From Quercus robur (Eukaryota > Streptophyta > Magnoliopsida > Fagales > Fagaceae), in contig NC_065536.1 in NCBI RefSeq assembly GCF_932294415.1, forward strand, positions 13,003,474-13,067,473: DNA of 64,000 nucleotides, in the 5' to 3' direction. The notes beneath the pieces were generated by a model. The model searched no databases, was not told where the DNA came from, and worked only from the letters and a program-made list of their open reading frames with translations. Position 1 is the first letter of the stretch. Each line of letters begins with the position of its first letter. Of the stretch, positions 18,093-58,495 are shown piece after piece. A program made the position numbers and the translations under genes.

Positions 18093-19064
18093 CCAAGGCC
18101 TTGCATGGTCCTCGGACTCAAGCCTATAGGGAAACCAAGTACTCAAAAAAGTTTTGGACAGAACCAAGGCCTTGCATGGTCCTCGGACTCAAGCCTATGG
18201 GGAAACCAAGTACTCAAAAAAGTTTTGGACAGAACCAAGGCCTTGCATGGTCCTCGGACTCAAGCCTATGGGGAAACCAAGTACTCAAAAAAGTTTTGGA
18301 CAGAACCAAGGCCTTGCATGGTCCTCGGACTCAAGCCTATGGGGAAACCAAGTGCTCAAAAAAGTTTTGGACAGAACCAAGGCCTTGCATGGTCCTCGGA
18401 CTCAAGCCTATGGGAAAACCAAGTGCTCAAAAAAGTTTTGGACAGAACCAAGGCCTTGCATGGTCCTCGGACTCAAGCCTATGGGGAAACCAAGTGCTCA
18501 AAAAAGTTTTGGACAGAACCAAGGCTTTGCATGGTCCTCGGACTCAAGCCTATGGGGAAACCAAGTGCTCAAAAAAGTTTTGGACAGAACCAAGGCCTTG
18601 CATGGTCCTCGGACTCAAGCCTATGGGGAAACCAAGTGCTCAAAAAAGTTTTGGACAGAACCAAGGCCTTGCATGGTCCTCGGACTCAAGCCTATGGGGA
18701 AACCAAGTGCTCAAAAAAGTTTTGGACAGAACCAAGGCCTTGCATGGTCCTCAGACTCAAGCCTATGGGGAAACCAAGTGCTCAAAAAAGTTTTGGACAG
18801 AACCAAGGCCTTGCATGGTCCTCGGACTCAAGCCTATGGGGAAACCAAGTACTCAAAAAAGTTTTGGACAGAACCAAGGCCTTGCATGGTCTTCGGATTC
18901 AAGCCTATAGGGAAACCAAGTACTCAAAAAAGTTTTGGACAGAACCAAGGTCTTGCATGGTCTTCGGACTCAAGCCTATGGGGAAACCAAGTACTCAAAA
19001 AAGTTTTGGACAGAACCAAGGCCTTGCATGGTCCTCGGACTCAAGCCTATGGGGAAACCAACTA
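18093..19064 (+). repeat. 71-bp tandem repeat array 1 (14 units)
   Basis: Units start ccaaggccttgcatggtcct every 71 bases (18093, 18164, 18235 ... 19016); the last unit is partial. Units are nearly identical, with a few G/A differences (agtgctc or agtactc). Because 71 is not a multiple of 3 and no frame has a stop, all three forward frames stay open across the array and each reads the same 71-residue cycle in a different register. Confidence 0.95.
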
Positions 19065-20619
19065 CTTATAAGGAAAAACTACATTACATGGACTTTAGGA
19101 TTTATCCGAGGAAAACTCTCCACTAACAATTGGGTTAATTCCTAAATTGTGAGGATTCTTAAGTCTGCTTTCGGATCTTTAGCACTAAGGGGATCGATGC
19201 AATATAGAGCAATATGTCGCCGGAAACACAATCGGAGTTCCCTACTTCTCAGTCAACTGCTCGGATGGATTATTTAGAGATTATCATTCTCGGACGGTAT
19301 TCACGCGCTTATCACAGAATATTCAACTGTTACCTCGGTTAGTTTCCTAAGTTTGATTTACTATGAATTATCGTCATAATGCCTGGTAGTATTGGTAAAT
19401 CAGAATTAGTTGGATTATGTTTCAAGTTTTCCTGCTCTAAATATCCTTGAAGAAACACACACATGGAGCACATCCATTCACAAAGTAGTGTTGCCAAAAG
19501 ATCAGTATTCAAAACATGTAAATAAATTTATATTTTTACTAAAACAAAGAAATAGTACAGCGTACAATGAAAAGCTGGAATCAGCTTATGTCAAAGCTCA
19601 CTACATAATTGAAAAGGAAGATACAAGAAAATAAAACAAAGCCGAGGAGCAGTATAGACGAGAGGTTGGCTTCTAAAGCTAACCACATAATCAAAAAGAA
19701 AGATACAAGAGAATAAGATAAAGCCAAGGAGGTGGCACAGAAGAGAGGTTGGCTACTGCTTCAAGACCTCGTTCTTCCTCAATGCTTTTACATGCCCATA
19801 ACTCAGGCAGCAAAAGAGCCCAGCCTGGGGCCTGCAACCTCGAAGAAAAGGTGCAGAGAGAACCCAACTTGAGCCTCACACCGCTGAAGGAAAGGTGCAG
19901 GGAGCCGGAAGTTGAGGAGCCTTCACCAAAAATTTACCTGCAACAAGGCAGTGGCGCTGATGGCGGAGAATCTTTCTTCTGACACACCAAAATTCTGGCA
20001 TGAACAGAACCTGCTTCGGATTTTGACTAAAAAAGTGAGAGACACCCTTTCCCCTCGGTCGAAACGGAGTATCCTCTTAAATTTATGCTTCCCTTGCCCG
20101 TACCTCACTATTTTGAGTCTCAGGAGGACACGGCGCCTCTGTGGCGAAGAGAGTTCCTTCTCCCCAACCCTCGCCTCAAACATGTTATGCTAAGGGAGGA
20201 TAGCACTGAATATATGAGTTGTGATTTGGGAGGAAGCTGAAGGATTTGTGTGTAGGTAAAGCAACTGTCTCTCCCATTTATTTAAAAAGATAAGGTGGTG
20301 GCATTTAATTCACGCAGCATCCCAAGGGACGCTACCGATAAAATGGCTCTGACTCAATTTCCAACGCCAACTGCAACCACGAGATTAAAGGAGCCTCGTA
20401 AAGGCGCACCTCGAACACTAGGACGTCAAAGAATACCGCGTGGCCAAAGACTACAGAAATACCTCTTAATTCGTGGGCCTAGTGAATTCGCGGCCCATGC
20501 CCGTTTTGCATGAGGGCCCAGGGACTACGGCCCACGCCGAGGAAAGGCCGTTGCCGAGGACAACCTCCTGCTCGGCACCTCGTGAAATACCAGAGGAAAG
20601 GGAGAAACTGAACTCAAAG
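19065..20619 (+). other. LTR element interior, non-repeat segment
   Basis: No recognisable protein domain. It contains a tandem pair of about 90 bp (19584-19670 and 19671-19755, shared agctaaccacataat type text) and a segment (about 19980-20170) with weak similarity to 21830-21980. Confidence 0.5.
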
Positions 20620-20893
20620 TTTTGGACAGAACTAAGGCCTTGCATGGTCCTCGGACTCAAGCCTATAGGGAAACCAAGTACTCAAAAAAGTTTTGGATAG
20701 AACCAAGGCCTTGCATGGTCCTCGGACTCAAGCCTATGGGGAAACCAAGTACTCAAAAAAGTTTTGGACAAAATCAAGGCTTTGCATGGTCCTCGGACTC
20801 AAGCCTATGGGGAAACCAAGCACTCAAAAAAAAAAGTTTTGGACAGAACCAAGGCCTAGCATGGTCCTCGGACTCAAGCCTATTGGGACGCCA
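20620..20893 (+). repeat. 71-bp tandem repeat array 2 (4 units)
   Basis: Same unit as array 1, starting about 20632, 20703, 20774 and 20848; the last spacing is longer because of an expanded A run. Both arrays end in ccaactact, so the second is probably an internal duplication of the first array's end. Confidence 0.92.
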
Positions 20894-21469
20894 ACTACTC
20901 GGATGGGGAAAGTCCTCGGCTCAAATACAGTAAAATGTTAAGGCCAATAAAAGTGTTAGGATGATGGCGGGACGCCCCACTATTCGGTAGCCTAAGGGGG
21001 CTGTTCATTTTTGCGGGTGATATGTCTTCGGATGATTACTTCCTACACCGCATAGAGCATCCAATTCTAATCTCGGCATTGTTTTGAGTAAGTATCGTTA
21101 TTCACAGGTAGGCATTACTGTGTCAAGCAATTCTATTAAAATTATGGTGACATCTTTTTATTAGCAAGTATTTTGTCCTTAGTTGTCATTGATTCAAATG
21201 CTATACTATTGTGCCGAGCAGCGCTTGCAAATTTGTAAAAACATAGAGACAACATGTGAAGTAAAATAACAACAATTTTTATTAATATGAAAAATTATTA
21301 CAACGTACAAAGAGGGGCTTAAACAAGCCTATACAAAAGATGAACTGCCGAAGCAACGACAACATCCGCAATACAAATAAGTAAACAGTCAGGTGTCTTT
21401 TAAACTCGTCTTCAAAGTCTCTCCAATCTCTGCCTCAGTATTGCTCATATAGAGAGAAGAACCTTCTTA

Positions 21470-29425: not shown

Positions 29426-30139
29426 GCTCGACTATATACATTATATTGAGCTATGTATAGCCTATAGTCTTTGGCTCACTTTTAACCTAGCAACATTACT
29501 AATGAGAAAAAATAGCACCTTGATCAAGCTCCAATATTGATCTTTTAGTACATCTTTGTCACAGAGGAGTCCTTTTTTTTTCCTGAATGATGCATTCATC
29601 CGGGTCCAAGCTAAAGCATTGTATCTATGACCGATCTTATTCCCTCTGTGCAACTGTTCTAACATAAGATCAATAAAAGAACAATCCATTTCCCTAGTCC
29701 AATTTATCCTCAAATGATCAATATTGGCAGGGCACTGGTAATCCTCTACACTTAAAACCTCAAAACTAAACTGCCATTACATGAGAGAATGTGTTCTAGA
29801 GACATATGTTACAAAGAAAAAAACAAAATAATAATGTTTCTTCTTATTATTTAACAAATACATTAAATTAAAACATTACAGGAAATGGGTAAATTCAGTT
29901 CTTTTGTATTAAACTTTAAAAAAAAACTGAGTCTAGTAGTTGTTTTCGCATCAAATTAATACTTCTTTTGCAATGTTGGCAATAACCCCTAACAGGTCTC
30001 TTTGGTCTTTTCAAGGCACTTGTCTAGGTCAATAACCCCGGCCTTCTAATTGTCGGCAAACAGGTTCCTCTTTTTCACGTTTAAATGTTCATGTCAGTGA
30101 GTTATACACACATGAAGAAAAAAAAGGATTTTTTCTTTT

Positions 30140-36006: not shown

Positions 36007-39000
36007 TCAGGGACTAGAGGAGCTCGAAAGGTCTCCCGCGTCTGAGTCCATATGTGAACCATTTGGAGATAGTAAAGGTGCGAGCAGCTCTGTGTCGTCA
36101 GCAACATTTTGAGAATTGTGTTGGATGATAACGGAATTCTGAGGAGGACATACGCATTCCACATGTACTCCCATCCTTGCAATCACAGGAGCGTATTTTC
36201 CGTTTGTACTTACCCAGTGAGCGATTTTACATGAAATCTCAACATGATTCCGATCACCTTGCATCAAGTCTCCGAAACTCCTCTGTAATCGGCTATGAGG
36301 TTCACCGTGAAACCACAGATGATCACACTTCAATTCATATAAACGCCACCCAACCATGTGACGTCGCTTACGACTATCGGTAGAAATGTGGATATCGAAA
36401 TAACAATCGATTATATCATCACGAATAGAACCGTACTTATCATTATTAGCGTAACTGTCCTTCAACGGAATTAGATGAAAAGCAACACAGACAGCAATTG
36501 ATGGAAACTCAGGACCAACCCAGAATGATATGGAACTTTCAATGCTTTGATGATTGATCCAATTCGGAATCTTCTTTCCTGGTACTGTAATATTATATGT
36601 CTCTCCATAATCAACCAGATACGTATCTAGAGTGGGAAAGGACTCATCTTGAATTGCGTTGAGCTTAGAGAGGGAGACCCGGGAAGAGCAATCAATCTGA
36701 TTTGATAAATTGCGATGTGAATGCGAATCCATTAATACTCTGTGTTTCACACCTGAACATTTCATATTTGGTGAAAGCCCTAAATTTCTTCCAAACTGCA
36801 TGAAATTAGGAATTTTAAGAAATTGAAGTTTAGCAAATCTAGTAAATGTATTTGCAAAGGTAACCAAAATTGTTTCTATTATTACTTTAAGAGAGAGAGA
36901 GAGATGGGTACCTGAAGGATTAATTTTCTTAATGATTCTGAATTCAACGAGATGCAGTTTGTTGCATCTACTTGTCTTATACTTTCTGGAAGCTTTGGAA
37001 TTTTCTTAAGGAACTTGGAATTCTTAATTAGAAGCCAATTTAATCTATTGAATCTGATAATGCTTTCTCTGAAGTTCAAATCTTTACTCCCTGATAATAA
37101 ACATTTCTCTGAGTGGGTGAAGCAAGAAGTCAACTTTTTTAGAAAATTCAACTTTGGAAAACAATATTTTGAAAATCCACTGTAAGAATTGCACGCTGCT
37201 GCTTGTCTACCAATCCCCACGTCCTTTGGAAATTTGACATTACCATAAAGGTGGAGTGTGCGAAGTTGTTGCAATTTATAAATACTACTTGGAAGATGAC
37301 ACAAATAGAAAGTGGAACCTATATCTAATCGCTCAAGTCCAGTGAGATTCCCAATTGATGGAGGAAGCTCTCTAATAGCAGTGTGTCCCAGACTTAGAAG
37401 CTTTAAATTTTCCATTTCTTGTGGAATATCAGGGAACCTCTTAACCCTTTTGCAATTAAAAAGACGTAAATATTTAAGAGATTTCATCACGATACAACTT
37501 GGAAGAATTTGAAGTTCACTGCAGTTCCAGAGGTCCCAGCTTTCAAGCTTATCAAGATATCCAACAGAGTCATGAATCTTGACTAATTTTTTACACCTTT
37601 GGAGATCCAATTTCTTTACATTTGGGGTGGCACTCAATAAGTCGGGTAATTCCCTAATGTATTGATTGGAATTGAAATTCATATATGTCAAGTTTTTGCA
37701 TTGTATCCTCTGTAGAAAAAAGAAAATCAAAATTTTTAACTCCAACAAACGTTATTAAAATATAGTTTAATAAAGTAATAATAATTATAAATAAATAAAA
37801 ATGATTATACCTTGAAAAGCTTGTCCAATGTAACTCGACTTTCTGGCATGTTCAGTGCAATGAGATTTTGAGGATCAAAATTAGGTGGTAAGGAAGATAA
37901 AGGAAATCCGGACCAATCAAGAACCCTTAATTCGTTAGGAAGATATTTGAGACCTCTACAAATATCTACATTACTAACTATGAGGAACTTGAGATTTTTC
38001 ATCTTTTCAAGACATTTAGGTTCTAATTTCATCTTTGATGATTCAGGTGAGCATATCCTTATGCCTCGAATTTTTTCTGATCCCTAATTAGACAAAGCAT
38101 CAAGTCAATCACACTATACAATAAAATTCACTAAAGTGTAATGACGATTAATTTAAACAAGAACTAAACTAATAAACTTAAATTTTCTTCAACATTTAAA
38201 TGAAAAATAATCACTACATTTGCCATTTGAAAAAAAGGTAGAAAATGAACCAAGATAATGCATACCGTATTTTGTGTTAGTACTTTATAAACATCCTCAT
38301 AACACCATAGCCTACTACGCTCTCCGGGCATTTGTGGCGATTCCCGTCGAATAATGTCCCTACCCATTTGTTGGAGCAAGTCATGCATCAACAATCTATC
38401 ATAGTGATCAACAGTTATTAGGCACTTATCGAAAAGTTTTTGAATTCCACAAATTGGATGTAAATCGCAAGCATTCAATATATCCATGACATACTCCTTA
38501 AAATATCCCTTAAAGAAGCATGCGATATCAAGGAAAATATCTTTTTCAATTTCATCCAATCCTCCATAGCTTATTTCGAGAATTTTTTGAATTTCTTCAT
38601 TAGGAATTCTTTCATACTTATCTACTGCACTTCTCCATTCAGGTTTAGTTCTTCCATACAAATCAGCACCAATTATTACTAGAGCCAACGGCAATCCCTT
38701 GGCATATTGTATAACTCTGTCTGCAAGTTTCAAATAATCATCTTTGGGTTTGTTGCTTTGGAAGGCGTGCATACTAAAAAGTTCGAGAGCTTCATCTTGA
38801 TCTAATTCCTTAACCGAGTAGGTTGAACGACAATTTCCAAGAGTAGCTGCCAAGTGTTTGTCTCTTGTTGTTATAATGATTTTGCTTCCAGAAGCAAACC
38901 AATCACATCTTCCAAGCAAATTTTCTATTTGGATCCGTTTATCCACATCATCAAGAGCTAAAAGGATCCTCATAAATGAAAGTCTTTCCTTTATCATATT

Positions 39001-40146
39001 GATTCCTCTCGATTTGTTACCCACCTTTAAATTTGTATTCCTTAAGATCTCAAAAAGAAGTGTCTCTTGTAGTTCGATTACACCAGCATTTGTCCCCGAT
39101 CTTTCTCTTAAATTTTCTAGATAACAAAATCCATCAAATTCATCACAAATTCTATTAAAAATAGCTTTTGCGATTGTTGTCTTCCCAATTCCACCAGGGC
39201 CATAGATACCTATTATATGACCATCATTTGACTTAATATCTGAAAGTATGGTCTTTACACGATAATCTATTCCAACTGGGTATCGTGTGACAAATAATGG
39301 TGTTCTATTAAATTTAGAATTTGAAATCTCTTCAACAATTCCTTGGATAAATTTGAACTCGTTGCAACTGTCATTCGCATAACATTAAAAAATATATATA
39401 ATGAGTTAGACTAGAAAATAGAAATGTGAAGATCAACTAAATTTAAGATGCTCCGCTTGTGCATAAAAATTTTAAATATTGACAATTAAAGTAAGTGGCT
39501 TGTATTAATTCCCATATATATGACATTCAATTTAAACATAAATATGCAGGCATAACATAATTTGAAATTAATAGGATATTATTGTTTAGAAAATTTATTT
39601 ATATATAGAATTTATATGTGTTTATATTAAAAAAAAAAAAAAAAAGACTAAATAATAAGATACTTGAATTGATCATTTGCCTACTTATTTCAAGTTTGAA
39701 AGTTAAAGACTTAAAAGACAATAAATAAAAGTGTAAAATTGAAGGAAAGTATGGTTATTTGATCAAAATGACTTAACATTAAAAACAAAACCGTTTGAGT
39801 AAAGCCAATGTGTTTTGTTTTTTTTTAAAGTCAAATTTTCATGATTTAATCAGGTTTTTTTTTTTTTTTTGGTTGTGAAACATTTTTTTAGTTGTGAAAC
39901 TAAAGCTAAAGTTTCTGTCAGTACAATCCGGATTTTCATATGGTTTACCATTTTGACGGTTCAACCCTTGATTCAGTGCAATTCTGCGTACTACTAATAT
40001 GTCTAGAATGAAGTTGCATGGAAAAGCTCAGTTTTAATACTAGAACTAAATGTTTCTCAAAAAAAAAAAAAAATACTAGAACTAAATCATTAAGGATATT
40101 TTTGGGAAAATTTTTAAATAAATAATATGTGGGAGAAGGAAACTCC

Positions 40147-40177
<31 letters not shown>

Positions 40178-41247
40178 GATATGTTCAAAACATTTTTATA
40201 ACATTTTTACAACAAATCATAAGTGGCAGGTTGTTACTAGTTGTTATTGTTGGGGCAAAAAAGTAATCTTAGTGTTAGGTTCAAATTTAAACCAGTAATA
40301 ACTAACCACCTATAATTTGTTTTGAAAATATTGTAAAAATGTTGTGGACATAGCATCTTATATATATATATATATATATATATAAGATGCTATGTCCATA
40401 ACATTTTTACAACAAATCCTAAGTGGCAGGTTATTACTGGTTGTTATTGTTATGGAAAAAAAGTAATCTTAGTGTTAGATTCAAATTTGAACCAATAACA
40501 ACTAACCATCTATGATTTGTTGTGACACTCCAATTTAATTAGTAACTTTTTTTTTTTTTTTTAATCCTTCTATTTCAATATTGCTAGCTAATTAACCTCT
40601 ACAGTCATAGATATGAAGAAAAAAAAAATACATACATAATTTGGCCAAAAGACTAACATTGATAAATTAGTGGTAATTGTTGTTTAACAATAAAATTAAT
40701 GATCAGACCATTGACAATTATAAAAAGTACAATAGTTGTCATTAAATACATACCTATGCTTGTAATGCCAACCAGATATATTAGCGGCTTCATGGAGAGC
40801 TTTTCTCCATCTTTCTACTTTCTTGCTATCCTTAAGTTTTCTTTCATGTTTAGCTAGGGCTTCCCCGAACTTTTCATTTTGGTTACGAATTTCTGATGGA
40901 TCCACCTTGTAAAAAACCGGTCGCACCAACTGGTCATTCTTTTTGCACTCAACAATCTTGGCAAGCTCATCCAAACACCAAGTGGAAGATGCATAGTTTT
41001 CAGAAAATACAATTATTGACATCATTGAGTTCTCAATGGTTTGGAGAAGCTCTATAGAAATTTCTTCTCCCCTTGGAAGCTTATCATCAATGAAAGTGTG
41101 AATACCCCTCAAACGCAAAGCGTCATACAAATGGCTTATAAAACCAAAACGGGTATCTTCACCTCTAAAACTCAAGAAGACATCAAACTTCTTGAGTTGG
41201 TGGGTGAAAGAAGAAGATGAGGCTCCTTTGCAGGTCACAAGAGCCAT
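36007..41247 (-). CDS. TIR-NBS-LRR (TNL) immune receptor
   Basis: Intracellular plant immune receptor. Five coding exons: 40754-41247, 38266-39367, 37811-38083, 36912-37709, 36007-36795; all junctions are GT-AG and sum to 1151 codons plus stop. TIR domain, residues 20-150, with D-V-F-L-S-F-R-G-E-D-T-R and putative NADase Glu94 in C-L-D-E-L. NB-ARC domain: P-loop G-P-G-G-I-G-K-T-T (221-229), kinase-2 L-L-A-L-D-D-V (300-306), G-S-K-I-I-I-T-T-R, G-L-P-L-A (389-393), M-H-D (492-494). Exons 3-4 encode leucine-rich repeats (about 533-889). Exon 5 carries a post-LRR C-JID-like domain (P-G-K-K-I-P-N-W, 961-968). All key residues are present, so it looks functional. By family knowledge it would bind ATP/ADP, oligomerise on effector recognition and cleave NAD+ to start EDS1-dependent defence; the recognised pathogen cannot be inferred. 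Intron 1 contains a MITE pair. Myb copy B lies 1.2 kb upstream on the same strand. Confidence 0.95.
39368..40753 (-). other. Intron 1 of the TNL gene
   Basis: Separates the TIR exon from the NB-ARC exon. Holds poly-T/poly-A runs (near 39630, 39860 and 40545) and two related MITEs joined by a palindrome (40172-40530). Confidence 0.85.
40172..40530. mobile_element. Two adjacent MITEs with a central palindrome
   Basis: Element 1 (about 40172-40352) has long inverted ends built on aacatttttacaacaaat. Element 2 (about 40384-40530) repeats its left part. Between them, 40333-40410 is a near-perfect palindrome centred on a (TA)n run, with arms reading gtaaaaatgttgtggacata and its complement. Confidence 0.75.
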
Positions 41248-42446
41248 CGAGATTTATGAGCAAACAGTTGTAAAGATCTGAAATGAGGAGAAAGAAAACT
41301 GTGAAAGGATTGCAATATAACTCAGGAAAGTGAATGACAAATTAGGAAGGAGTGAATGCAAGCAAGAGGAGCCTTTAAAGGTGGCTTGCTTTCTGTGTGT
41401 CCAGCAACTCTTTGAACTTTAAAGTGCCATATTGATGCTTTTTACATTGCTTTTGGTGTGACCAGTAACTCTTTGAACTTTCCAACAACCATAGATGCTT
41501 TTTTTATTGCAATATCATGCAAGTTTCCATGTGAAACCTAAAATAAATTTTGGAACTTTCTAAGCACCATACCGGTAATTGTGGTCAAACAAAATGGTAA
41601 TTTCCTATCTTATTAGTCATTCGAAAGTGAGATGTAATAAACAAAGGGAAATGTTAATAAAAGTAGATATCCCTCTTCCATGCAATCCAACAAAGTTGAA
41701 AGAGAGGTCCACACGTTTATGACTTTCTGGAAAAGTAGCTATCTTTAGTCTAGCACCATGTCAGGTAAGATTTCTTTATAAAAAGTGAAGTTTCTCATTT
41801 TCCTACAGATTCCCCTCTTTTTCCATGACACTGATGGTGTAAAGAAGAAAGAAGGGAAGGGAAATATTAAACTTTCCTTTGTTTGGTTATTAGGAGAGGA
41901 GAAAAATGAAAAAGTGAAGAAAGTAGAATCCACTCACCACAATAATTTTTTATCAAAAATCTCACACTCAAACGGGGAAAGGGGATGTATGAAAAGTCCA
42001 CTAAAAGATATAGTGCATATAGATTTATTGTATATCAATATGCTAGCTAAATAGCTAAAAATCCTTTTCACTTGTAGATAAAATGTTATGCCCTAAAACA
42101 TGGACACAAATAAGTCCATTTACTGTCATATAAGCATTAAAAGATATAAACGCGCAACACATGTTAAAGCTTCAATCTATTTTTGTTTTGGGAAAAATAT
42201 CAATTGAGAATGTATTTTTCATCAACTTTCAAGGCAATCAACCATAAATCCAGCTACAACATGCGCAGGACCTCCCAGCAAAAACAAATTCAATTCCCTT
42301 TTTTTTCCCAATTTCAATAAGGAAATCAAACAGGAAATTGCATTGAAAAATGCCTTTACATTAATATAGGATCTGATTTACATTGGAAAAACTCCCCAAT
42401 AAAAAAGTACCAAAATTATATCTGACATTAACAAGAAAAATAGATG
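41248..42446 (-). promoter_or_regulatory. TNL upstream region / 3' flank of Myb copy B
   Basis: 1.2 kb between the receptor start codon and the Myb stop codon. Expected to hold the receptor promoter; no individual element is convincing. The 42240-42446 part resembles 61590-61850 next to relic D, as expected for the Myb 3' UTR. No other gene. Confidence 0.45.
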
Positions 42447-44028
42447 CTACCGTCTAAGCTTTTTCAATAACCACTTCCTCCGTGCTGTGACATCCATGGC
42501 CACGAACATCTTGGCCTTTCTCTCATCTTCTAAAAGTTCACAAGCCTCCAAGAAGATCTCATCATCCATGTCAGGAACGGTTTGAAGTGCTGCAACTATA
42601 CATTCTATTGAGCTGTAGTCTTTGTCTTCCTCAGTACCCAAATATGTTTTTACTACACATGGCTTCCCCTCAACTGCCTCTTGTGTCTCTTTCTTGATGG
42701 TTCTCCGAACTTTTTGGATACATCCTGAGGTTGATGAAGAAGCAGATTTTCGCTTTCTTCTCAGATGAGATATTTCTAACTCCATAATTGGAGATTGTGT
42801 ATCTCCAATTATATCGTCAATCCCCATCCCCAGGGTGTTGGTGTTGATCTCCATTTTTACATCGAAATAACTTGATCTACTATGCTGACTTTCATTACCA
42901 TAAATCAAGCACAAATCACAATAATCATCCAAGATCTTATATCTGTATGTAACTGCATCTGGATGATCCTGCAAAATGCCATTTTTAAATAAAAGCTGAT
43001 CAAAATTATAGAGTTCAATGTTCAACTATCAATAAGATTATGTTCTGCACCCTACATTATGCACCAACATATAGTTTACTTCATGAATACTGTTAATCAT
43101 TTCATCAAGGGGGAGAGAAAGAAAGAATATGTGTGCACGCACACATGTTTACCATACTGTGGCATGCTCAGTGCTCTTTAGTGATAACCAAAGGAAACAA
43201 AAGGAGATAACACTTTATCCTAGCAAGATTACAAATAAGAAAAAATAGCACCTTGATATAAGCTTCCCAAACATCATCATCAGCTGTCATTGTTTGGTGA
43301 ATTCCATCCCAAGCAAAGCCATTATGATTCAGGGTATCTGTGATGTCCGTATACTCTTTCCTCAAACTCCAATACCGATCTTCTAGTACATCTTTATCAC
43401 AAAGGAATCCAAATTTTTTACTAAATGTTGCATTCATCCAGGTCCAAGCTTGAGCATCGTACGTACGACCAATCTTATTCCCTCTGTGCAACTGTTCTAA
43501 CATAAGGTCAATAAAATAACGGTCCATTTCCCTTGTCCAATTTATCCTCAGAGAATCATTATTAGCAGGGGACTGGTAATTCTCTTCACCTACAACTTTA
43601 AAAATAACTGTCATTACATGAGAGGATTTATTCTGGAGCCATACAGTACAAAAAAAAAAAAAAAAAAAGTAATAATAATGTTGTTTCATACTGTTTGACA
43701 AAATTTAATAGCTTCAAACATTACTTGAAATGGACAAATTTCAGTTCTTTTGTATCAAACTTTCAGGAAAACTGAGTCAAGTAGATGTATTAGCATCAAA
43801 TTAAAACTTCCTTTTTGCATGGATAGTGACAAATTAATTACAACAACAAAGTTGACAATTTATTTATAGTAATTATTCTAGCAAATGGACAACTATTGCA
43901 CCTGTAAATTAAACATGCTAGTGCAGTTTTCAGATGGTCCTCCCCTAATATCACACCTGTAATTCAAACATTTTCTGAGAAGTCCTTAACTGATTGTACC
44001 AATCTTGTCTACCTAAAGGTAATATTGC

Positions 44029-44063
<35 letters not shown>

Positions 44064-47000
44064 AATATTTACTCCCAGCTAATAGTCCTCAGCATCCATA
44101 GAGTGACCAGAGTAATTTTGCCTTTGCTCAGTGTTGTCATTTCCATATATCAAAAACAAATCGTTGACATTTGGGAGAGTTCTATTGCGGTATGTTCTTG
44201 CATCAGGATGTACCTATAGAAATTATCTATAAGTTGTTGGGACCAAAAAGAATATTTATGTAATGGAAATTCAGAAGAAAATATCACCTTAACATAAGCA
44301 TCCCAGACATCATCTTCAGCACGTATAATCTGTTGCATTTCATTCCAAGAAAAACCACTCTGATCAAGTAGAGTTTTCATATCATTGAACCGCTTCCTCA
44401 AGTTCACAAAATGACTTTTTAGGACATCTTTGTCATGCTGAGACCCAAATTCTGCACTAAACTTTGCAATCATATCACTCCAGGCTAGCTTGTTGAATTT
44501 TTTATCAACCATACTTCCATTGCGAACTTGCTCTAACATTAGATCAATAAAATATCGGTCCATCGATGGTGTCCAATCAGTTCTTTGGTGATAGCTATTG
44601 TTAAGTCTGGCACCTTCAGAGAATTATAAATAACGTAAATATGGGGAAAGGTAATCTTTATTTGCTCATTAAAAAAAAAAAAAGATTCTTCTTTTGACTT
44701 CAATGATCACTATGTTTCATATTAAAGAGGGAGTAGGGACTTGTTCTCTTTCTGTTTTTTTCCCTTGGTTCAAGAAAGCATTTAAACATATCTTGACAAA
44801 ATGCTATTGCAATCAATGCAATATGAAATAGCACAGGTATATATATCCAGACACATTGAACACATATATCTAATTGCTCATTGACTAAAGACCAAATACT
44901 TAAATAGGGAAAACACAGGCAAATGCTGAGATTGCTTATAAGCTTGTTGAACCAAAATCTCACCAAAACCGTTACATCCTAGATCTTGACGCGCTTCATT
45001 ACACCGTTCATCAGAAGCTGGATTTCTATAAATCAAGCACAAGTCATTATAATTTGGCATCGGCATGATTCGGTATGGTTTTGCATCTGGGTGTTCCTAC
45101 ATAAACAAAGTTTTAGCCAATAGCTATGTATACTCGAACTGACATTTAAGACTAAAATAAGTTGACAAGGCACCTTCACATATGCATCCCAAACATCATC
45201 AAAAGCTGTGACCATTTGCTGTGTTTCATCCCATGAAAATTGTCTCTGTTCAAGAAGATTTTTCATATCAAAGTACTGCTTTTCCAAACTTCTATAACGA
45301 CTTTTCAGAAAATCTTTGTCATGTTGTAATGAGAATCATTCCCTGAACAACATAAACATATCTATCCATGCTTGATTGTTGAAAGTGAAATCAATCTTCT
45401 TCCCCTTATGCACTTCCTCTAGCATTACATCTATGAGATAACGGTCCATTGAAGGTGTCCAATCTGTTGTTGAACAACCACTGTTTGCATAGCATTGGAT
45501 ATCCTCCCCTATTACAAACCAAAGATTTTGTTAATTCATGCAATAAGAAATATGTATTTCAAAGATGATAAGTCCAATGAGACAACTTATACTTTTTTTT
45601 TTTTTTAATTAAATGCAGGGGTAACACTCTCGTTTTAGCCAAAGTTAGATAGATCAGCATTGTCAACCCCAGTCAACAACCATGTAGAAATATTTAGAAT
45701 GATAACTGCATGGGTTCTGGTACATCAGAATTAGGATAGCAATGAAAGAAAAGGAAATAATGCAACTGAAGGAAGACTGATATAGTAGGTTAAGAACACA
45801 ACAAAGAAAATAAGACAATAAATAAGCAGATAATAACTTCCTTAAATTATTTGGGAAGCTCTCGCTGCTGAAACAAGAAACCTACCAATTCTCAAATCTG
45901 GTTCTTCACTGTCAAGATCTGCATTGCACGTTGAAATGCTGTATCTTCCATTACAAACTTCTTCACCATATATAACACATAATTTGTGATAGCTGGGAAC
46001 AGATTTATTTCTATATGACTGAGCATCAGGATGCACCTGCATATTTTATACATAAGCCACATAATAAAACTACAAATATCTAAAGGATACAAGAATGAGT
46101 AAATAAAATTCACCTTGGTATAAGAATCCCAGACATAGTCCTCAGCAGTTACCATTTCTCCTGTTTCATCCCAAGAAAACCCACTGTGATCAAGAAGAAC
46201 CTTTATATCATTATACTGTCCCCTTAAATGTTTGTATCTATTCCTCAGACCATCTTTGTCATGGTGAGATCCAAATTTTGCATTGAACAGTCTAAGCATT
46301 TCGATCCATGCCTCAGCCACAAATCCATGACCAATTTTATTCCCTCTAAGCACCTGGTCTTGTAACAATTCAATAAGGAAACGATCCATTGTTGATGTCC
46401 AATTTGTTCTCCGACATTCACTATCAGAAGAGGTATGGCCCTCCTTTTCTTCAGCTACAGGATAGGTAAAACTGACTGATTTATGAGGATAATAGACAAC
46501 TTCTCATTCATCAAAACGTTTCAGACTTTTAAACATAAATTAAGCTAGAAGAACATTATACTTGCCATTAATTGACAAACAGTAATTCATATACTTTAAC
46601 ATCATTGGATAGCAATAAGATGGGGTACAGACAATATCCACAGCCCCGTAAATCTGTCCTAACCCTAAGAGAAAATTTAAAGAAATTATTAAAATGAATT
46701 AAAATCTCATGGATCTTAAATGAACTGGGCATCCCTACAAGCACATAATGAAAAAACTAGAACCTATAAATCAAATTTCCATTTAAGGATTGCAAACATG
46801 AGAAAATAATAACTGTTATACAGTATACAAATCTCTCCAATTAAACATATCTGATCAAATTCCATTTTGTGAAGCTTAAAGACCTACTGGACACCCGAAT
46901 ATTAACCAAAGTCTTAATTGTGATTATCAATAAATCCCAAGTGGCATGTATAAAAACGAAACCAGATTTTTTATTTTGATAGGTAAACTGAATTATACTA

Positions 47001-48980
47001 ATAAATTGGAGAGGAGTATCCTCAAGAATACAGGTTCCGTCTAAAGGTCCTCCTTTTAATACAAGAAATGAACCTCACCTGTCTTGATCTGTATGATATC
47101 ATCTTCAAAGTTTCTCCCTTGCAATAAATGACTGCAATGTCCATTGCTTACTGCATTTCCAAATATCAATTTCAAATCGCAATAGTTTAGCAAGGTCTTC
47201 CTACGATACAAATGCGCATCTGGGTGTGCCTACATCAGCAATTGTACGAATGAAATACAGTAAAAATGAATACCAATAACCAAATATATATGATAGTGTA
47301 CCTTGATGTAATTATCCCATAGATAATCATCTGCTGATATCTTTTGTTGAATTTCATCCCAAGAAAATCCCTTCACCTCAAGTAGACTCTTCACATCAAT
47401 ATAATATTTCAATAATTTCTTAAAACGGTGTTTTAAGAAACTCTTTCCATATTTAGAGCCAAATTTTCCATTGAACGAGGAGAGCATATCATTCCATGCT
47501 TGTTTCTTGAATGTATTACAGATCTTATTGCCTTTTTTAAGTTGGTCCAGCAAAAGCTTGACAAAATATCGGTCCATGGCTGGTGTCCAATCTATTTTTG
47601 AATGCTCTTTACTTGCCAGTACAAGGCTATTCATTGCAACACCTAATCAGTAAAAGTAGTATTTATTCATCAAAAATAGATTATTCTTCTTGAAATACTC
47701 ATTACTGTAAGCTAACATAGAACATATGTAATTTCAATCAATCTTGCTGCACCCAATTCCTAGCTATCAAATAAAGTAAGATATGCAAAATCCAAAAAAA
47801 TAAACCATCAGGACCAGTTCAGTCAAGTGTTCACACAAAGCCAAGAACAATGTGCTCATTTCTCTGCAACATTTTTTTCTCTTTTCCATGGATGGGAATA
47901 AAGGTGCTTGTTTCTCCCATAATACAGACCGGTTTGCAAAACAACAGCAACTACAAGTCTTATAATTAGGTACTACTTAGGTCATAATTGGCTAAGTTCA
48001 GAATCAGCAGTAACCACAATTCTGATTCTTGTGGAAAGCATACCATGGTTGAATGCCCAAAGATTGGCTAAAAGAGAGATTGCAGTGTACAAATTTCAAA
48101 GATGGTAAAAGGCCATTATTACTTCAAAATTTATTAAATTCTAAGGGGCATAGAGTCCAATCTATCTCTGGATAGACTCAAGAGAAAAAGGGGGAGGGGG
48201 TTGTTGCTTATGGCCCTTTCTTGTTTTATGCATACTCTCTAGAATAAAATAGTAGTAATAATAAATAATAAAGAATTAGATAGTATAACCAAATCAATCA
48301 CAATGAAAAATGGTAATTTAAGCAAAAAAACCCAATAGCATACATTCCAATGCCAATGGCATATGCATCATTTCTGCTGATCCATGTCAGGATATAAAAA
48401 CACACCAGTATTCACTCCTTGAATGTCATCATCAAAGTCTATATCACGACTTGATAGGCTGTATCTTCCATCTGCTGTTGTATGTGCATATATCAAGCAC
48501 AAATCATTGAAGTTCATCAAGGCTTTGTTTCTATAAAACTGTGCCTCTGGGTGAGCCTGCATGTATATAATGTCAAGTCACCACTCACTATGACACCAAA
48601 GGTGTAGATCAAATCAAAACATTAACAAAACTAATGCACCTTGATGTAAGCATCCCAAACATGATGACTGGCGACCACCATTTGTTTAGTATCATCCCAT
48701 GAAAATCCATTCTGATCAAGTAGACTCTTTACATCATTGAATTGAGTCCACAAATTAGTGTAATGACTTTTCAAGACCTTTTCATCATATGGAGATCCAA
48801 AATAGGCATTGAACATGGTCAGCATATCAGTCCAAGCTTGTTTGTTGAATGTATGGCCCATCCTATTCCCCCTATGCACCTGATCTAATAAAAGATCAAT
48901 AAAATAGCACTCCATCGCTGGTGTCCAGTTTGTCCTTGTCCGATCACTACATGCAGGCATTTGGATGCCCATTTCTTCCC
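42447..48980 (-). CDS. Six-module Myb/SANT-like protein gene, copy B (two in-frame stops)
   Basis: L10-interacting-MYB-like protein with six Myb_DNA-bind_3 modules, presumably nuclear. Exons: 48640-48980 (ATG 48972), 48406-48556, 47302-47642, 47079-47229, 46114-46454, 45886-46036, 45174-45508, 44964-45096, 44288-44613, 44063-44213, 43252-43589, 42447-42968; 3273 coding bases, 1090 residues. Modules start near residues 1, 162, 326, 490, 646 and 805. Each domain exon runs from N/D-W-T-P-x-M-[DE] to V-W-D-x-Y-x-K; its partner starts H-P-D-A and is 151 nt in four of five internal cases. The C-terminal tail has basic R-R-K-R-K-S and ends [11 protein letters not shown]. Lesions: TGA (45336-45338, codon 547), Arg CGA in copy A, and TAG (44079-44081, codon 799). 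Every module is symmetric (phase 1 to 1), so skipping modules 4 and 5 would leave a 776-codon four-module frame. Pseudogene or alternatively spliced gene; transcripts would decide. Confidence 0.75.
44033..44062. repeat. (AG)n microsatellite at the module 5 splice donor
   Basis: About 14 AG repeats. On the minus strand the donor after exon 44063-44213 reads GTCTCT, so the repeat has replaced the usual donor context. Confidence 0.85.
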
Positions 48981-52749: not shown

Positions 52750-55700
52750 TTATTGATGTAAAAGAGCCAAATCAGCTTGTACAATAGATTGAATGTGTGA
52801 TGGAACATCCTCCATCCAAGCTAAAAAATCTGGTATGCGTAGAGCATATTTGGCCAGACTATGAGCTACAGCATTGCCATCTCTTTTTGTATGAGAATAT
52901 AGCAATAAATCAAAATTTTGGGACAAACTTCTGACATCCTCAAGCAGTAAACCCGTAGGTGTTAATGTCTCTGTTCTTTCCAGTAGTGCTTGTATCACTT
53001 CCAGTGAGTCACCCTCCAGTATAAGGCGCTGAAAGCCAAGATCTTTTGCAAATGTTAGAGCCGTAGCAGCTGCCATGGCCTCTATCTCCACTGCCTTAAC
53101 GGACTGATGTATTTTCTTCGCACATGAAGCTAGAGCCAAACCGTTCATGTCCCGTACAACCACTCCAACTCCAGACTTTTTCTCCTGTGAACAAGTCGCC
53201 CCATCAAAATTTACTTTAACCACTTCCCTTGGAGGAGGACGCCAGTGGTTTTGGGCTGTATGAGTAGCCCGTCGCCCCTGAGATTCCCGCCTCTGTATTG
53301 ACCTGTGAAAATCCTCCAAACTGGATTTTGCAGCAACTGCTACCTGCTGAAGATCAGTGGCAGGTTCTTGTATCCGAGCCCGGTTCCGTTGATTCCAAAC
53401 TGACCAAGCCGTGAGTGCAAAAAGATCCAAGTTCTTCCCTTCCGTGATTAACCAAGAAACCAGGTCTGTGAAGTCCAGAAAACCAGTAGAGTTTCTGAAA
53501 TCCCATTCTGCGTGATCAACCCAGACGACATCAAGCTTGGTGCAGGTCCATAATGCATGAAGAGGGTCTTCGACATCGGTTTGGCAGCGTTCACATGTGG
53601 AATCTTCAGTGATAGTGCGTTTCATCAACGCGTGTTTTGTCGGCATTGCATTTCGACAGGCCCTCCATATAAACATTTTAACCTTCTGCGGAACTTGCAT
53701 CGACCAAATTGCTTTCCATATATTTTTATCTCGAAGAGGTGGAACCTGGTTTGAGACTTCCCTTTCAGCTTCTTCCTTGAGGAAATGGTAGCCCGATTTG
53801 CATGTATAAACCCCATTTTTTGTGTACGGCCAGAACAGGACGTCCTCTGCTTCAACATGGCTCAGTGGAATTGACTTAACTAGCTCAGCATCTTCTTCAT
53901 TGAATAGCCCATTCACCAAGTCTGCCCTCCATTGCCGCGTGGATTGATCAATCAAGCAGGACACCGAGGAGTTTTCAAAGTCCTGTATGGGGCAAATCGG
54001 TAGATATGGAGGATGTTTCCTTGGCAACCATCTTTGCTGCCATATGTTGATTTTCTCCCCATTTCCAACCCTCCACCTAACTCCCCTTTGAATAACATCC
54101 CTTCCTCTAATAATACTCTTCCATGCATACGAACCCATTCTTGAGTCAACCGCTTCCATGATTGTAGTATTTGGAAAAAATCGGGCCTTGAAAACCTTGT
54201 AGAAAAGAGAAGTTTTATTGTGCAAAAGTCGCCATGCTTGCTTTGCTAGTAGGGAGTCATTGTACATGGTTAGATCCCGGAAGCCCATTCCACCCACTGA
54301 TTTGGATTTTGTCATTTCCTCCCACTTGATCCAATGAATCTTTCTATGATCACCACGTTGCCCCCACCAAAATTTTTTAATTAGAGCTTCAATTTCATGA
54401 CACAATCCAATGGGTAATTTAAAACAACCCATTGTGTAGGTGGGGATAGCTTGTATGATTGATTTTAGTAGCACCTCCCTACCTGCTTGCGAGAGCAATT
54501 TACCTTCCCAACCTTGTAACTTCCTCCATATTTTTTCTTTGATGTAGTTGAAACTTGCTTTTTTCCTTTTACCCACAAAGGAAGGTAGCCCCAAATACCT
54601 CTCATATTGCATGATCTCTGGAACACCAAAAGCCACCTTTATTGCATGCCTCACATCACTTGGAGTACATTTGCTAAAAAATAATGCAGTTTTGTTTTTA
54701 TTGACTTTTTGCCCCGATGCCTCCTCATACATATTCAAGACCTCCAACACCTTTTCACATTCTTCTATGGTTACCCTGCAAAAAAGAAGACTATCATCTG
54801 CAAAAAGCAGATGGGTTAGTTTGGGCCCTCTCCTACACAGTGAAAAACCGTGTATTTCTCCATTATTTTCCGCTTTCTTGATTAGCCCATTTAGGCCTTC
54901 AGTACAAAGCAAGAAAAGAAAAGGTGATAGAGGATCGCCTTGTCTTATCCCCCGAGTAGGCTGAATCATACCACAAGGCTCCCCATTGACCAACACCGAA
55001 TATGAAACAGTTTTAACACACCCCATTATCAGTTGGATCCACCTTTCATTAAAACCCATTTGTCTCATCAGTTTTTCCAAGAAATTCCAATCAACCCGAT
55101 CGTAAGCCTTACTCATATCCAATTTAATAGCCATAAAACCATGAGTAGTAGACTTGAAATTTTGCAAACTATGAAGGGTCTCAAATGCAACAAGGATATT
55201 ATCAGAAATTAATCTATCTTTTGTAAAAGCTGATTGGTGTTCAGTGATAATAGATGGTAATAATTTTTTCAAACGGTTGGCCAATACTTTGGAATATACT
55301 TTGTAAAGTACATTACAAAGACTAATAGGGCGGAATTGATGAGCATATTCAGGCTTATTTATTTTTGGTATGAGAGTGATAAACGTATGGTTGAGGGGGG
55401 ATGGTAGAGTACCTGAATTCAACCATGCCAGGATGGAGGAGGTGACATCCTCTCTTACTGTGTCCCAAAAATGCTGGTAAAAAAGGGGTGGCATTCCATC
55501 GGGCCCAGGAGCTTTAAGTGGTGCCATTTGGTGTAGTGCTTCCTCCACTTCTTTCTCATCAAATTCTTGGCTTAGGGCGGCATTCATCTCATCATCAATG
55601 ATAGGTTGTACACATGATAATACATGTTGGGGCATATTGTGCTCAGTTGAGGTAAAAAGATTCTGGAAATAATTTACCAGAATTGTGGCGATATCAGTCG

Positions 55701-56862
55701 GTTGGTCTCTCCACCTATCCTCCTCATCTCTAATTCCTTCAATCAGATTTTTCCTATATCTCCTTGTAGCACAACTATGGAAATATTTGGTATTTCTATC
55801 CCCTTGCCTTGCCCATAGTACTCGTGATCGTTGGGCCCACATAATGGCTTCTCTCTCCAACAGCACCTCAATCTCCCTTTTTAACTGCCTCACTCGATTG
55901 TTGTTGCCACTAGCCATAGCTTCAACTTCGGCTTTTGCTAAGTTTTTCTTCAATCGGTCCAAATCCTTCCTCACACTACCAAAGACATTTTTATTCCACC
56001 AACACAAATCTTTCCCACATTTTTCAACCTTTGCTAGAATAGAACCTTCGAACCCGAAATCACCAACACTAGTCCATGCAGCCTGCACCACCTCTTCACA
56101 TCCCGTGTGTGACAGCCACATCTCTTCAAATCGAAACAATTTTTTCCGGGAAGGTGGATCAATTCCCGAAAAAACAATATGGAGAGGGATATGGTCTGAA
56201 AAGTCACATCTGAGATGATAGACTTTTGTTCCCGGAAACCTTAAAAACCAGCTGTTAGTTGCCAAACATCTATCTAATCTTTCCCATATTGAATTACCAT
56301 TCTCGAAATGTCTACTCCAAGTGTATTTTGGGCCTACAAAGCCCAAATCCATAAAACCGCACTCATCAATCACATCTCTGAACTGTTGCATCTGGTTATG
56401 GGACCGAATTGCTCCTCCCAACTTTTCATCCTGACGAACTATTTCATTGAAATCGCCATAACACAACCATGGCCTCTCTGGACTTGAATTCAATCTCCTA
56501 AGTTTCTCCCAAGCTTCAGACCGTCTTCCTGTTTCAGGTTCACCATAAAATCCTGTAAAAAACCATTCACTTTCCAAACCTTTGTCAATAACAGCATGAA
56601 TAAAATTTTTATCTGATCCTTCTATAGTCAAATTAATTGATGATCTCCAGTAAAGAACCAGACCACCACTGCGCCCCACTTTTGGAACTACCCATCGATG
56701 ATCAAAATTGATACTATTTTGAATGAACTCTATCCTTGCTTCGTCTGTAAGTGTTTCGGCTAAAAACACTACAGAGGGATCTTTTGCCCGTATTAATTCC
56801 ACGAGCTCTCTTCCTATACGTAGGTTCCCAAGCCCACGACAGTTCCATACTAAGCAACTCAT
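52750..56862 (-). CDS. LINE ORF2: endonuclease, reverse transcriptase, RNase H
   Basis: 1370 residues without a stop. The N-terminal APE-type endonuclease (about 1-230) has W-N-C-R-G (6-10), C-Y-G-D-F-N (about 133) and D-F-S-D-H (about 219). The reverse transcriptase follows, with the catalytic F-A-D-D near residue 687 and G-I-R-Q-G-D-P-L-S-P just before it. A zf-RVT domain starts near 1050 (W-K-A-I-W-S-M-Q-V-P). A plant-type RNase H (from about 1215) has F-D-G-A, E-I-E-A, E-G-D-S (about 1281) and R-D-G-N-A-V-A-H (about 1326). It would nick target DNA and copy its own RNA by target-primed reverse transcription in the nucleus. The ATG overlaps the ORF1 stop as ATGA. All catalytic motifs are present, so it may be active or a donor for the truncated copies, although the latter belong to another lineage. 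Confidence 0.95.
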   Translation of the reverse strand: MSCLVWNCRGLGNLRIGRELVELIRAKDPSVVFLAETLTDEARIEFIQNSINFDHRWVVPKVGRSGGLVLYWRSSINLTIEGSDKNFIHAVIDKGLESEWFFTGFYGEPETGRRSEAWEKLRRLNSSPERPWLCYGDFNEIVRQDEKLGGAIRSHNQMQQFRDVIDECGFMDLGFVGPKYTWSRHFENGNSIWERLDRCLATNSWFLRFPGTKVYHLRCDFSDHIPLHIVFSGIDPPSRKKLFRFEEMWLSHTGCEEVVQAAWTSVGDFGFEGSILAKVEKCGKDLCWWNKNVFGSVRKDLDRLKKNLAKAEVEAMASGNNNRVRQLKREIEVLLEREAIMWAQRSRVLWARQGDRNTKYFHSCATRRYRKNLIEGIRDEEDRWRDQPTDIATILVNYFQNLFTSTEHNMPQHVLSCVQPIIDDEMNAALSQEFDEKEVEEALHQMAPLKAPGPDGMPPLFYQHFWDTVREDVTSSILAWLNSGTLPSPLNHTFITLIPKINKPEYAHQFRPISLCNVLYKVYSKVLANRLKKLLPSIITEHQSAFTKDRLISDNILVAFETLHSLQNFKSTTHGFMAIKLDMSKAYDRVDWNFLEKLMRQMGFNERWIQLIMGCVKTVSYSVLVNGEPCGMIQPTRGIRQGDPLSPFLFLLCTEGLNGLIKKAENNGEIHGFSLCRRGPKLTHLLFADDSLLFCRVTIEECEKVLEVLNMYEEASGQKVNKNKTALFFSKCTPSDVRHAIKVAFGVPEIMQYERYLGLPSFVGKRKKASFNYIKEKIWRKLQGWEGKLLSQAGREVLLKSIIQAIPTYTMGCFKLPIGLCHEIEALIKKFWWGQRGDHRKIHWIKWEEMTKSKSVGGMGFRDLTMYNDSLLAKQAWRLLHNKTSLFYKVFKARFFPNTTIMEAVDSRMGSYAWKSIIRGRDVIQRGVRWRVGNGEKINIWQQRWLPRKHPPYLPICPIQDFENSSVSCLIDQSTRQWRADLVNGLFNEEDAELVKSIPLSHVEAEDVLFWPYTKNGVYTCKSGYHFLKEEAEREVSNQVPPLRDKNIWKAIWSMQVPQKVKMFIWRACRNAMPTKHALMKRTITEDSTCERCQTDVEDPLHALWTCTKLDVVWVDHAEWDFRNSTGFLDFTDLVSWLITEGKNLDLFALTAWSVWNQRNRARIQEPATDLQQVAVAAKSSLEDFHRSIQRRESQGRRATHTAQNHWRPPPREVVKVNFDGATCSQEKKSGVGVVVRDMNGLALASCAKKIHQSVKAVEIEAMAAATALTFAKDLGFQRLILEGDSLEVIQALLERTETLTPTGLLLEDVRSLSQNFDLLLYSHTKRDGNAVAHSLAKYALRIPDFLAWMEDVPSHIQSIVQADLALLHQ

Positions 56863-58265
56863 TGTTGTTGGCGGGGCTGACTATCAGCCTCCACCAATAA
56901 AGAAGTTGATTTCTCATCAGTATTCGATACTTGAATGCGTTTCGAAGGTACCTCAAACTGACATTCTGCTTCAACATTTGTTCTTTTTTGCCCTGAGATT
57001 TTCTGCTCTGTAAATTGCCCCACTGAGTTAACCGGTCTGCTTTTTCGTGTCCAGCAATGAGGGCTGCGTGTTTTCACAATTGATGGTGAAGCCCTAGATG
57101 GATCCTGATCAACACGTGCGTTGCTTAGTTGCTGGTTGGTATCTTTTAAATATTCACGTGAGCTAGAGTCCATTATTACTTCAGCTGCTGAGTCACACTC
57201 CTTTTCCAAACATAACTCTTCAGCTAGATCATCATCAATATTATTTTGCACCGGCTGATCCTCATTAGGTCCCTTAAATGCTCCTTCAATCACGGTATTA
57301 ACTGGATATGATTACTAATTTTCAGTTTCAGCCGAGGTGTTTACTCCAGAGAATCCGTTGCACTTTAATGGTGAGTTAATGCTTCCCACGTAACGTTCAT
57401 CCTCACTGCACGCACGGTCCAACCCTCTTCCCCTCCCCTGCTGTGGCGGCTTGCCTGAAGCTTGGCTTGCCATGGTGGTCGTGCTGCCTTTCTTTTTTTC
57501 AGCATAATACCCAGGAACCTTGATAACATTCCTCTTTGATGGAATAAATGGTGGAGCTCTCAGCTGTGGACCAAACTCTCTTTGATCAATGCTCAGCGTC
57601 CCTTCACTCTCAATCCAGAGATCGCAATCTCGATCGTCATGAGTTAACCGGCCACACCAATAGCAAATATTGGGCAATCTTTCATATTTGAAGGACACCC
57701 AAATCTCTTTCCCATCATGCAGTGATATAAGGCGACCACGACACAATGGTAGAGATAAATCAATGGATACCTGTAGACGGATGAAGTGACTCGCATCAAA
57801 CACCCTATTTTCCTTTGGCCGAAACACCTGACCTATAACCTCACATATTTTTATCCCGGCTTCCACACTCATGTACTTGACAGGAAGTCCATGCACTTGC
57901 ACCCATAGGATCGTCCTCTCGAACCTGATCTCATTCAAAGGTTTATCACCTTCATAACGCTCCATTACTACCAGGTGTTTATCAAAACTCCATGGTTCGC
58001 TACTAATAATTCTTTCCACATCCTCTTCGTTATCAAAAGTGAATAAAATTTTATGGTCCTCAAACTTCTGAATCTTGAACCCACTCCTGGCTCTCCACAA
58101 TGGTGTAAAAGTTTTAGCTATTACATCCACACTGAGAGCTCTCCTTGTCAAGAATTTCGCAGCGATGGAGAATTCCTTGACAGTTTCCTCGTGAGTGAGA
58201 CTACACCCTGGCCCTTCTCTCTCGGAGAGGGTAAGGCGGTTCCAAGAATTTGCTAGCTCATCCAT
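56859..58265 (-). CDS. LINE ORF1 (DUF4283, zinc knuckle), interrupted by TAG TAA
   Basis: RNA-binding type ORF1. From the ATG at 58265 a DUF4283 region (about residues 30-170; F-T-P-L-W, W-V-Q-V-H-G-L-P) leads to a CCHC-type zinc knuckle C-Y-W-C-G-R-L-T-H-D-D-R-D-C at about 200-213. At 57312-57317 two consecutive in-frame stops, TAG TAA, end the first segment. The same frame then stays open for about 150 more codons to a TGA at 56859-56861, which overlaps the ORF2 ATG. So the original ORF1 was probably about 469 residues and is split here, or a shorter ORF1 is made. By family knowledge it would bind LINE RNA in a ribonucleoprotein particle. Frames on the opposite strand are shadows. Confidence 0.85.
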
Positions 58266-58495
58266 GATCACTTACCCCACAAACTGTTTCCCAATCCCCT
58301 GAAAGAGAACCCAACAAACCTAGAGATAGTCTTACTATCCCAAGGATACAATCCACACCTCCAATGAAGTGACACCCCAATTCTACAAAGCCAAAGAAGT
58401 TAGAACAAGGCACTAGCTTCTTAGGCAGAGAGAAACCCGTCAAAGAGATTTTCTGTACATTTGTTAAATATCGAAAATCTCTGAAATTGCCTTTT

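Follow-up and report, generated by a model that had tools for sequence, protein, structure and literature searches.

A broken six-module Myb-like gene in oak, probably a passenger copied with a TIR-NB-LRR type resistance gene

We analyzed a 64,000-nucleotide (nt) stretch of the Quercus robur genome, hereafter the window (C3:13003474-13067473; the genome comprises 785.7 Mb in 42 contigs), which carries on its minus strand, at window positions 42447-48980, a Myb-like gene of 12 exons that we call copy F. In our judgment copy F is quite probably a broken copy of a gene with six PF12776 modules and an At2g29880-type C-terminal domain, which would have arisen by an old duplication of exon cassettes and would later have been copied as the passenger of a TIR-NB-LRR type resistance gene. 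The reading frame of copy F, which counts 1091 codons from the first Met including the normal stop, is not open end to end because it contains a TGA in the fourth domain exon, D4 (45336-45338, minus strand; codon 547 from the first Met), and a TAG in the fifth partner exon, P5 (44079-44081, minus strand; codon 799 from the first Met). Both stops occur in copy F only and not in the six other copies of the array to which it belongs; one of these, copy E, has frameshifts of its own in D4 and P5 that are separate from the stops in copy F. Copy F cannot make a six-module protein unless it is spliced differently, and no open frame runs through all six modules, as would be expected of a working six-module gene. 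Introns with GT-AG ends have been kept alongside the two nonsense codons, features of an unprocessed pseudogene, and copy F is probably without function. A sequence-only reading of the window had described a six-module gene at this place; its six-module anatomy was correct, but it missed both in-frame stops, and the gene is probably not a working one.

Domain exons (phase 1 in, phase 0 out) alternate in copy F with partner exons (phase 0 in, phase 1 out). In 5' to 3' order on the minus strand, the exons are D1 (48640-48980, 341 nt), P1 (48406-48556, 151 nt), D2 (47302-47642, 341 nt), P2 (47079-47229, 151 nt), D3 (46114-46454, 341 nt), P3 (45886-46036, 151 nt), D4 (45174-45508, 335 nt), P4 (44964-45096, 133 nt), D5 (44288-44613, 326 nt), P5 (44063-44213, 151 nt), D6 (43252-43589, 338 nt), and the terminal P6 (42447-42968, 522 nt). 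Every domain exon has a length of 2 mod 3, and every internal partner exon a length of 1 mod 3, so that the lengths and phases given by the sequence-only reading are borne out. P5 was defined by exon reading, D4 by exon reading together with a search of the oak genome itself, and P6 and the remaining domain exons by Pfam matches and exon reading. The intron inside each of modules 1-5 is 72-83 nt long and that inside module 6 is 283 nt, and the introns between modules measure 350-763 nt. Exon edges in the six other array copies were transferred from an alignment to copy F; over the seven copies, splice ends are GT or AG in all 161 checked, and the donor of the 151-nt P5, GTCTCT, is kept in all seven. 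D1 likely holds the start codon (MGIQ), the first in-frame Met being its third full codon, and an MG start is present at a like place in two of the three paralogues read, those on C2 (MGSQ) and C41 (MGIR); that on C35 differs (MDDD). The acceptor ahead of the MG start on C41 is in a different register, and phase 1 at the 5' side of module 1 may be noncoding. At the other end, the last module is not a free cassette because P6 carries the normal stop and the C-terminal domain. At these two ends the sequence-only reading had overstated the cassette design.

When modules 1, 2, 3, 5, and 6 of copy F were scanned against Pfam (module 4 being omitted for its stop), all five matched PF12776 (Myb_DNA-bind_3) at 89.9-117.7 bits (E 2e-25 to 4e-34; curated cut-off 23.6 bits), and module 4 matched the same family in the own-genome search at 99.5 bits with "1 TGA". 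For the same five modules, the classical MYB family PF00249 gave no match at E up to 1, and the best match to the trihelix family PF13837 (Myb_DNA-bind_4) reached 22 bits, below the cut-off of 27 bits. The tail of copy F matches PF24769 (At2g29880_C) at 34.5 bits (E 2.7e-8; cut-off 26 bits). An alignment of seven module rows from the window (from copy F modules 1, 2, 3, 5, and 6, and from copy E modules 2 and 3) has 23 invariant columns, four of which are tryptophan. Structure prediction of one module from these seven rows gave a weak model with four helices (mean predicted local distance difference test score 62.6), and a sequence search for relatives with solved structures found none, the best E being 0.67. 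On the basis of family membership, the open sibling of copy F, copy G, most likely codes for a DNA-binding protein of the nucleus that contains several Myb/SANT-like modules, and the intact protein would bind DNA through several of them.

Copy F is one of seven 12-exon copies (A-G) that span 12.48-13.15 Mb of C3, an array of 0.66 Mb in which all copies lie on the minus strand with the same exon order and with pairwise exon identities of 95.7-99.7%. The best 150 of 756 candidates were scored in the genome search with PF12776, so that these and the following counts of PF12776 loci are lower bounds. Six of the seven copies are broken, and G alone (C3:13139454-13145136, minus strand, outside the window) is open on exon reading, free of lesions and encoding 1090 amino acids (aa). 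The first in-frame stop is at codon 667 in A, 194 in B, 211 in C, 194 in D, 563 in E, 547 in F, and, as the normal end, 1091 in G. In copy A, D5 contains a stop and the frame is shifted in P6; copy C has a deletion in D2. Copies B and D have three lesions in common, in that D2 has lost 8 nt, D3 contains a TAA, and P3 contains a TAG, and each of the two has a P6 lesion of its own. Copy E has a 2-nt deletion in D4, a 1-nt deletion in P5, a stop in D6, and deletions in P6; modules 1-4 and part of D5, with the D4 deletion and further lesions, lie in the window (1-4570, minus strand) and the remainder below it. If several lesions in one exon of one copy are taken as one, the translations give 14 independent lesions (two in A, three common to B and D, one further in each of B and D, one in C, four in E, and two in F).

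The array also contains relics; when module 1 of the C2 paralogue served as the query, another five D1 pieces and another six P1 pieces were found there. The relic at 13.0703-13.0734 Mb has modules 1-3 at 89-95% identity, with breaks, and its likeness to copy G stops about 100 nt past P3. Like pieces are present near 12.723, 12.758, 12.806, 12.940, and 12.982 Mb of C3 (near 12.806 Mb a P1 and a later piece, D1 not being among the matches listed); these five, of which sequence was read only for D1 and P1 of the one near 12.982 Mb, may also end after module 3. In the stretch with the latter relic there are, in addition, older pieces of D2, D3, P3, and P4 that are 72-88% identical. About six relics with pieces of modules 1-3 lie between complete copies (C3 12.72-13.07 Mb), as if a truncated form were part of the repeating unit. 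Module number is six in all seven complete copies, and the shorter array forms are decayed. A more diverged PF12776-like piece in the window (29516-29725, minus strand) is 49% identical to module 1 of the C2 paralogue, and a like-scoring match is found at C3:13125881.

Downstream of copy F, on the same strand, are the frames of a TIR-NB-ARC-LRR type resistance gene (36007-41253, minus strand; frames as read rather than a full gene model), with TIR at 40699-41253, NB-ARC and a winged helix (Roq1-like) at 38167-39384, LRR at 36885-37751, and C-JID at 36010-37005. In a search with the NB-ARC frame, in which the best 116 of 1253 candidates were scored, all seven complete Myb-like copies have an NB-ARC match 3.8-4.4 kb downstream on the same strand, the distance from the D6 match being 3874 bp in A, 3792 in B, 4176 in C, 3784 in D, 4447 in E, 3946 in F, and 3907 in G. 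The seven NB-ARC stretches (about 1.04 kb each) are stop-free; beside the six other copies, the reading covered this piece only. Between copies B and D, identity is 99.7% over the exons and introns of the Myb-like gene and 99.8% over the NB-ARC stretch, and this near-identity, together with the lesions that they have in common, suggests that an already broken copy was duplicated along with its resistance-gene neighbor. In addition, a piece on C38 (C38:26615500-26621500) carries P5, D6, and P6 at 94-97% identity, followed 3.8 kb downstream by a 90% identical NB-ARC match. Among the matches listed, no NB-ARC match lies within 1 Mb of the five unlinked multi-module loci (on C2, C41, C35, C37, and C1). 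More diverged Myb-like pieces at C3:18746155-18759976 are near a 65% identical NB-ARC match at 18757039, perhaps an older pairing of both genes. A literature search on DNA-binding passenger genes in TIR-NB-LRR arrays gave no match, which is no proof that such genes are unreported.

The C2 paralogue, which is unlinked to the array, has four modules in eight exons (341, 151, 341, 151, 341, 151, and 341 nt plus a terminal exon) with phases as in the array, is open for 775 aa, and has a C-terminus like that of the array gene. Since all four of its domain exons are 341 nt and all three of its internal partner exons 151 nt, the recurrence of length and phase is more than chance; an argument from independent odds for the phases was rejected, as duplicated exon pairs inherit them. 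Array modules 1, 3, and 6 pair in the trees with the first (95/94), third (100/99), and fourth (96/94) modules of the C2 gene. Module 2 pairs more weakly with the second, which is its best DNA match (83/88 together with the second C35 module in one tree, unresolved in another). Over seven exon pairs, copy G and the C2 gene have synonymous divergences (dS) of 0.47-2.17 and ratios of nonsynonymous to synonymous divergence (dN/dS) of 0.17-0.54, from which we take the modules to be old and constrained. Genes on C41 and C35 have two modules each, with internal phases as in the array and partner exons of 166 and 139 nt, and a locus on C37 also has two modules. A gene on C1 (C1:16952500-16962499) carries four PF12776 modules in which, in all three cases, partner and next domain form one open frame, the unit being one exon with phase 0 on both sides. 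In the tree, which also includes rows from some of the single-domain loci, its rows fall together (89/63) and form with a single-domain row from C4 a clade (100/99) apart from the modules of C3, C2, C41, and C35 (93/91). On two or more occasions, then, genes seem to have grown by whole units that preserve the frame.

These comparisons support the view, already put forward from the window alone, that whole modules were gained or lost in frame during evolution, the paralogues having two (C41, C35), four (C2), and six (C3 array) modules. The sequence-only reading had named a module number constant in all relatives as evidence against it; the number varies across paralogues, although it is constant in the seven complete array copies. 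Loss of two modules by the C2 gene and gain of two by the array gene both fit the data, and a search of the C2 gene for remains of modules 4 and 5 found none. Separately, an origin of modules 4 and 5 as late duplicates of one other array module was tested in seven groupings, without correction for multiple tests. Module 4 with 3 (p 0.032), 6 (p 0.028), or 2 (p 0.027), module 5 with 6 (p 0.037), and modules 1, 4, and 5 together (p 0.036) were disfavored, and module 5 with 1 (p 0.12) and 4 with 5 (p 0.49) were not; the set excluded 4 with 1, 5 with 2, and 5 with 3. Single PF12776 frames of about 107-122 aa that score almost equally are scattered in large numbers over many contigs and may be a transposon family. 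We recognized no description of tandem PF12776 modules in the open-licence literature, which does not prove their absence in print.

We propose an ancestral cassette that probably paired a 341-nt domain exon with a 151-nt partner exon (492 nt, 164 codons) and that would have been duplicated in tandem within one gene long ago. Phase-1 introns between modules and a phase-0 intron within each would allow entire modules to be added or removed with the frame kept intact. At a much later time, the gene as a whole would have been copied repeatedly as the passenger of a tandemly expanding TIR-NB-LRR type gene, whose duplication would drive the copying, and most passenger copies would have decayed by nonsense and frameshift mutations, the nearby copy G staying open.

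Several observations weigh against this account. The dN/dS ratio between array Myb-like copies is 0.31-0.61 (21 pairs), and values below 1 point to constraint for part of their history, or on some copies now; the ratio cannot, however, tell a decaying passenger from a kept driver, because the range for the NB-ARC stretch (0.26-0.66, 21 pairs) is no lower. Of the 17 NB-ARC matches listed at C3:12.40-13.15 Mb, ten lack a complete Myb copy immediately upstream. Moreover, apart from B and D, Myb and NB-ARC distances over the 21 pairs agree loosely (Mantel r 0.49, with 139 of 5040 permutations as high; Spearman 0.31, p 0.17), and the units have therefore been mixed. For each copy the NB-ARC control covers 1.04 kb, compared with 3.3 kb for the Myb exons, with TIR and LRR of the other copies outside the comparison. 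Gene conversion between B and D may have produced the likeness ascribed above to duplication, and a sequence error, or rescue of copy F by splicing, might yet account for its apparent decay. Finally, module 1 is free of lesions in all seven copies, with 12 replacement to 17 silent changes against 147 to 71 elsewhere (Fisher p 0.0075, a contrast picked after the data were seen and drawn from copies that are not independent), a pattern that leaves room for a working truncated protein.

This last observation bears on the explanation that survives best beside our own, although we consider it unlikely, namely that truncated proteins from the broken copies, ending after the first module or after as many as four, are still of use, for example in competing with the intact protein. 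In its favor, D1 and P1 are open with canonical splice ends in all seven copies, and replacement changes make up a smaller share in module 1 than in the rest. Module 1, however, makes up 15% of the length, and with 14 lesions over 3.3 kb it would escape all of them by chance about once in ten times. In addition, premature stops with introns downstream usually trigger nonsense-mediated decay.

Decay of copy F would also be only apparent if its transcripts skipped modules 4 and 5, yielding a four-module protein (1, 2, 3, and 6) as on C2, an explanation to which we give very little credence. Skipping of one module cannot open the frame because there are stops in both modules 4 and 5, and in silico removal of module 4, of P3 and D4, of D4, or of P5 leaves it closed; it opens on removal of modules 4 and 5 together or of P3, D4, P5, and D6. 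Without D4, P4, D5, and P5 the frame is open for 775 aa, which is as long as the protein of the C2 gene, and modules 4 and 5 are the two without C2 counterparts. Nevertheless, these modules carry five of the 14 lesions in 29% of the coding length, and a concentration of lesions there as a sign of skipping was rejected; copies B, C, D, and E, moreover, have lesions in other modules. The symmetric phases are explained by duplication alone, and they are no evidence of skipping because any tandemly duplicated exon pair shows them, skipped or not. Less credible still is the extended proposal that the cassette design saves broken copies from death, with copy F transcripts restoring the 775-aa protein in this way, and that the array yields proteins graded in their number of DNA-binding modules beside a resistance-gene cluster. 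As for the idea that errors of assembly or sequencing produced both stops and that copy F is intact like copy G, each stop does differ from the other copies by a single base. Two independent substitution errors in 3.3 kb would nevertheless be unexpected in contigs of 44-98 Mb, different lesions break six of the seven copies, and B and D have three lesions exactly in common, all of which makes this idea very improbable.

Elsewhere in the window, an open frame of 1376 aa (52750-56880, minus strand) contains endonuclease, reverse transcriptase, zf-RVT, and RNase H-like domains, and is adjoined by a DUF4283/zinc-knuckle frame (57315-58271, minus strand) as in a non-LTR retrotransposon; a further zf-RVT frame is found at 5417-6412 (plus strand). 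A tandem repeat recognized by eye at 17903-20933 (plus strand) has three frames simultaneously open over part of its length and a recurring peptide similar to KVLDRTKALHGPRTQAYGETK, and has a G+C content of 0.45-0.46 against 0.34-0.35 on its flanks.

Our interpretation of copy F as a decayed passenger corrects a striking gene model, in that what was reported as a six-module gene has most likely decayed. The relatives with two, four, and six modules and the same internal phases, together with a separate four-module gene built from a different exon unit, constitute a natural set within one genome for the study of changes in module number. Similarly, seven complete copies, truncated relics, one open sibling, and a broken copy that was itself apparently duplicated form a natural set for the study of how resistance-gene expansion carries and destroys neighboring genes.

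Among known systems, the closest is the C2 paralogue, which resembles the array gene in its cassette of 341 + 151 nt, its phases, and its C-terminal region, but differs in having four modules (counterparts of 1, 2, 3, and 6), an open frame, and, among the matches listed, no NB-ARC match nearby. Arabidopsis At2g24960 is probably a similar gene. LIMYB carries a single PF12776 domain. It has this domain in common with copy F, but there is one domain in LIMYB and six here, and the locus here is broken. Downstream of NIK1 and RPL10, LIMYB is reported to repress genes of the translation machinery (PMC10384534). ALP2, HDP2, and other domesticated Myb components of PIF/Harbinger elements are of a Myb-like type with conserved tryptophans. 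ALP2 is reported to lack the tryptophans that bind DNA and to be present once in most plant genomes (PMC7282668). Four tryptophans are invariant in the alignment of window modules from copies F and E, which consists of these modules alone. In tandem arrays of TIR-NB-LRR genes, neighboring genes are repeatedly copied and decay along with the resistance genes; the oak array differs in that the passenger is a multi-domain DNA-binding gene.

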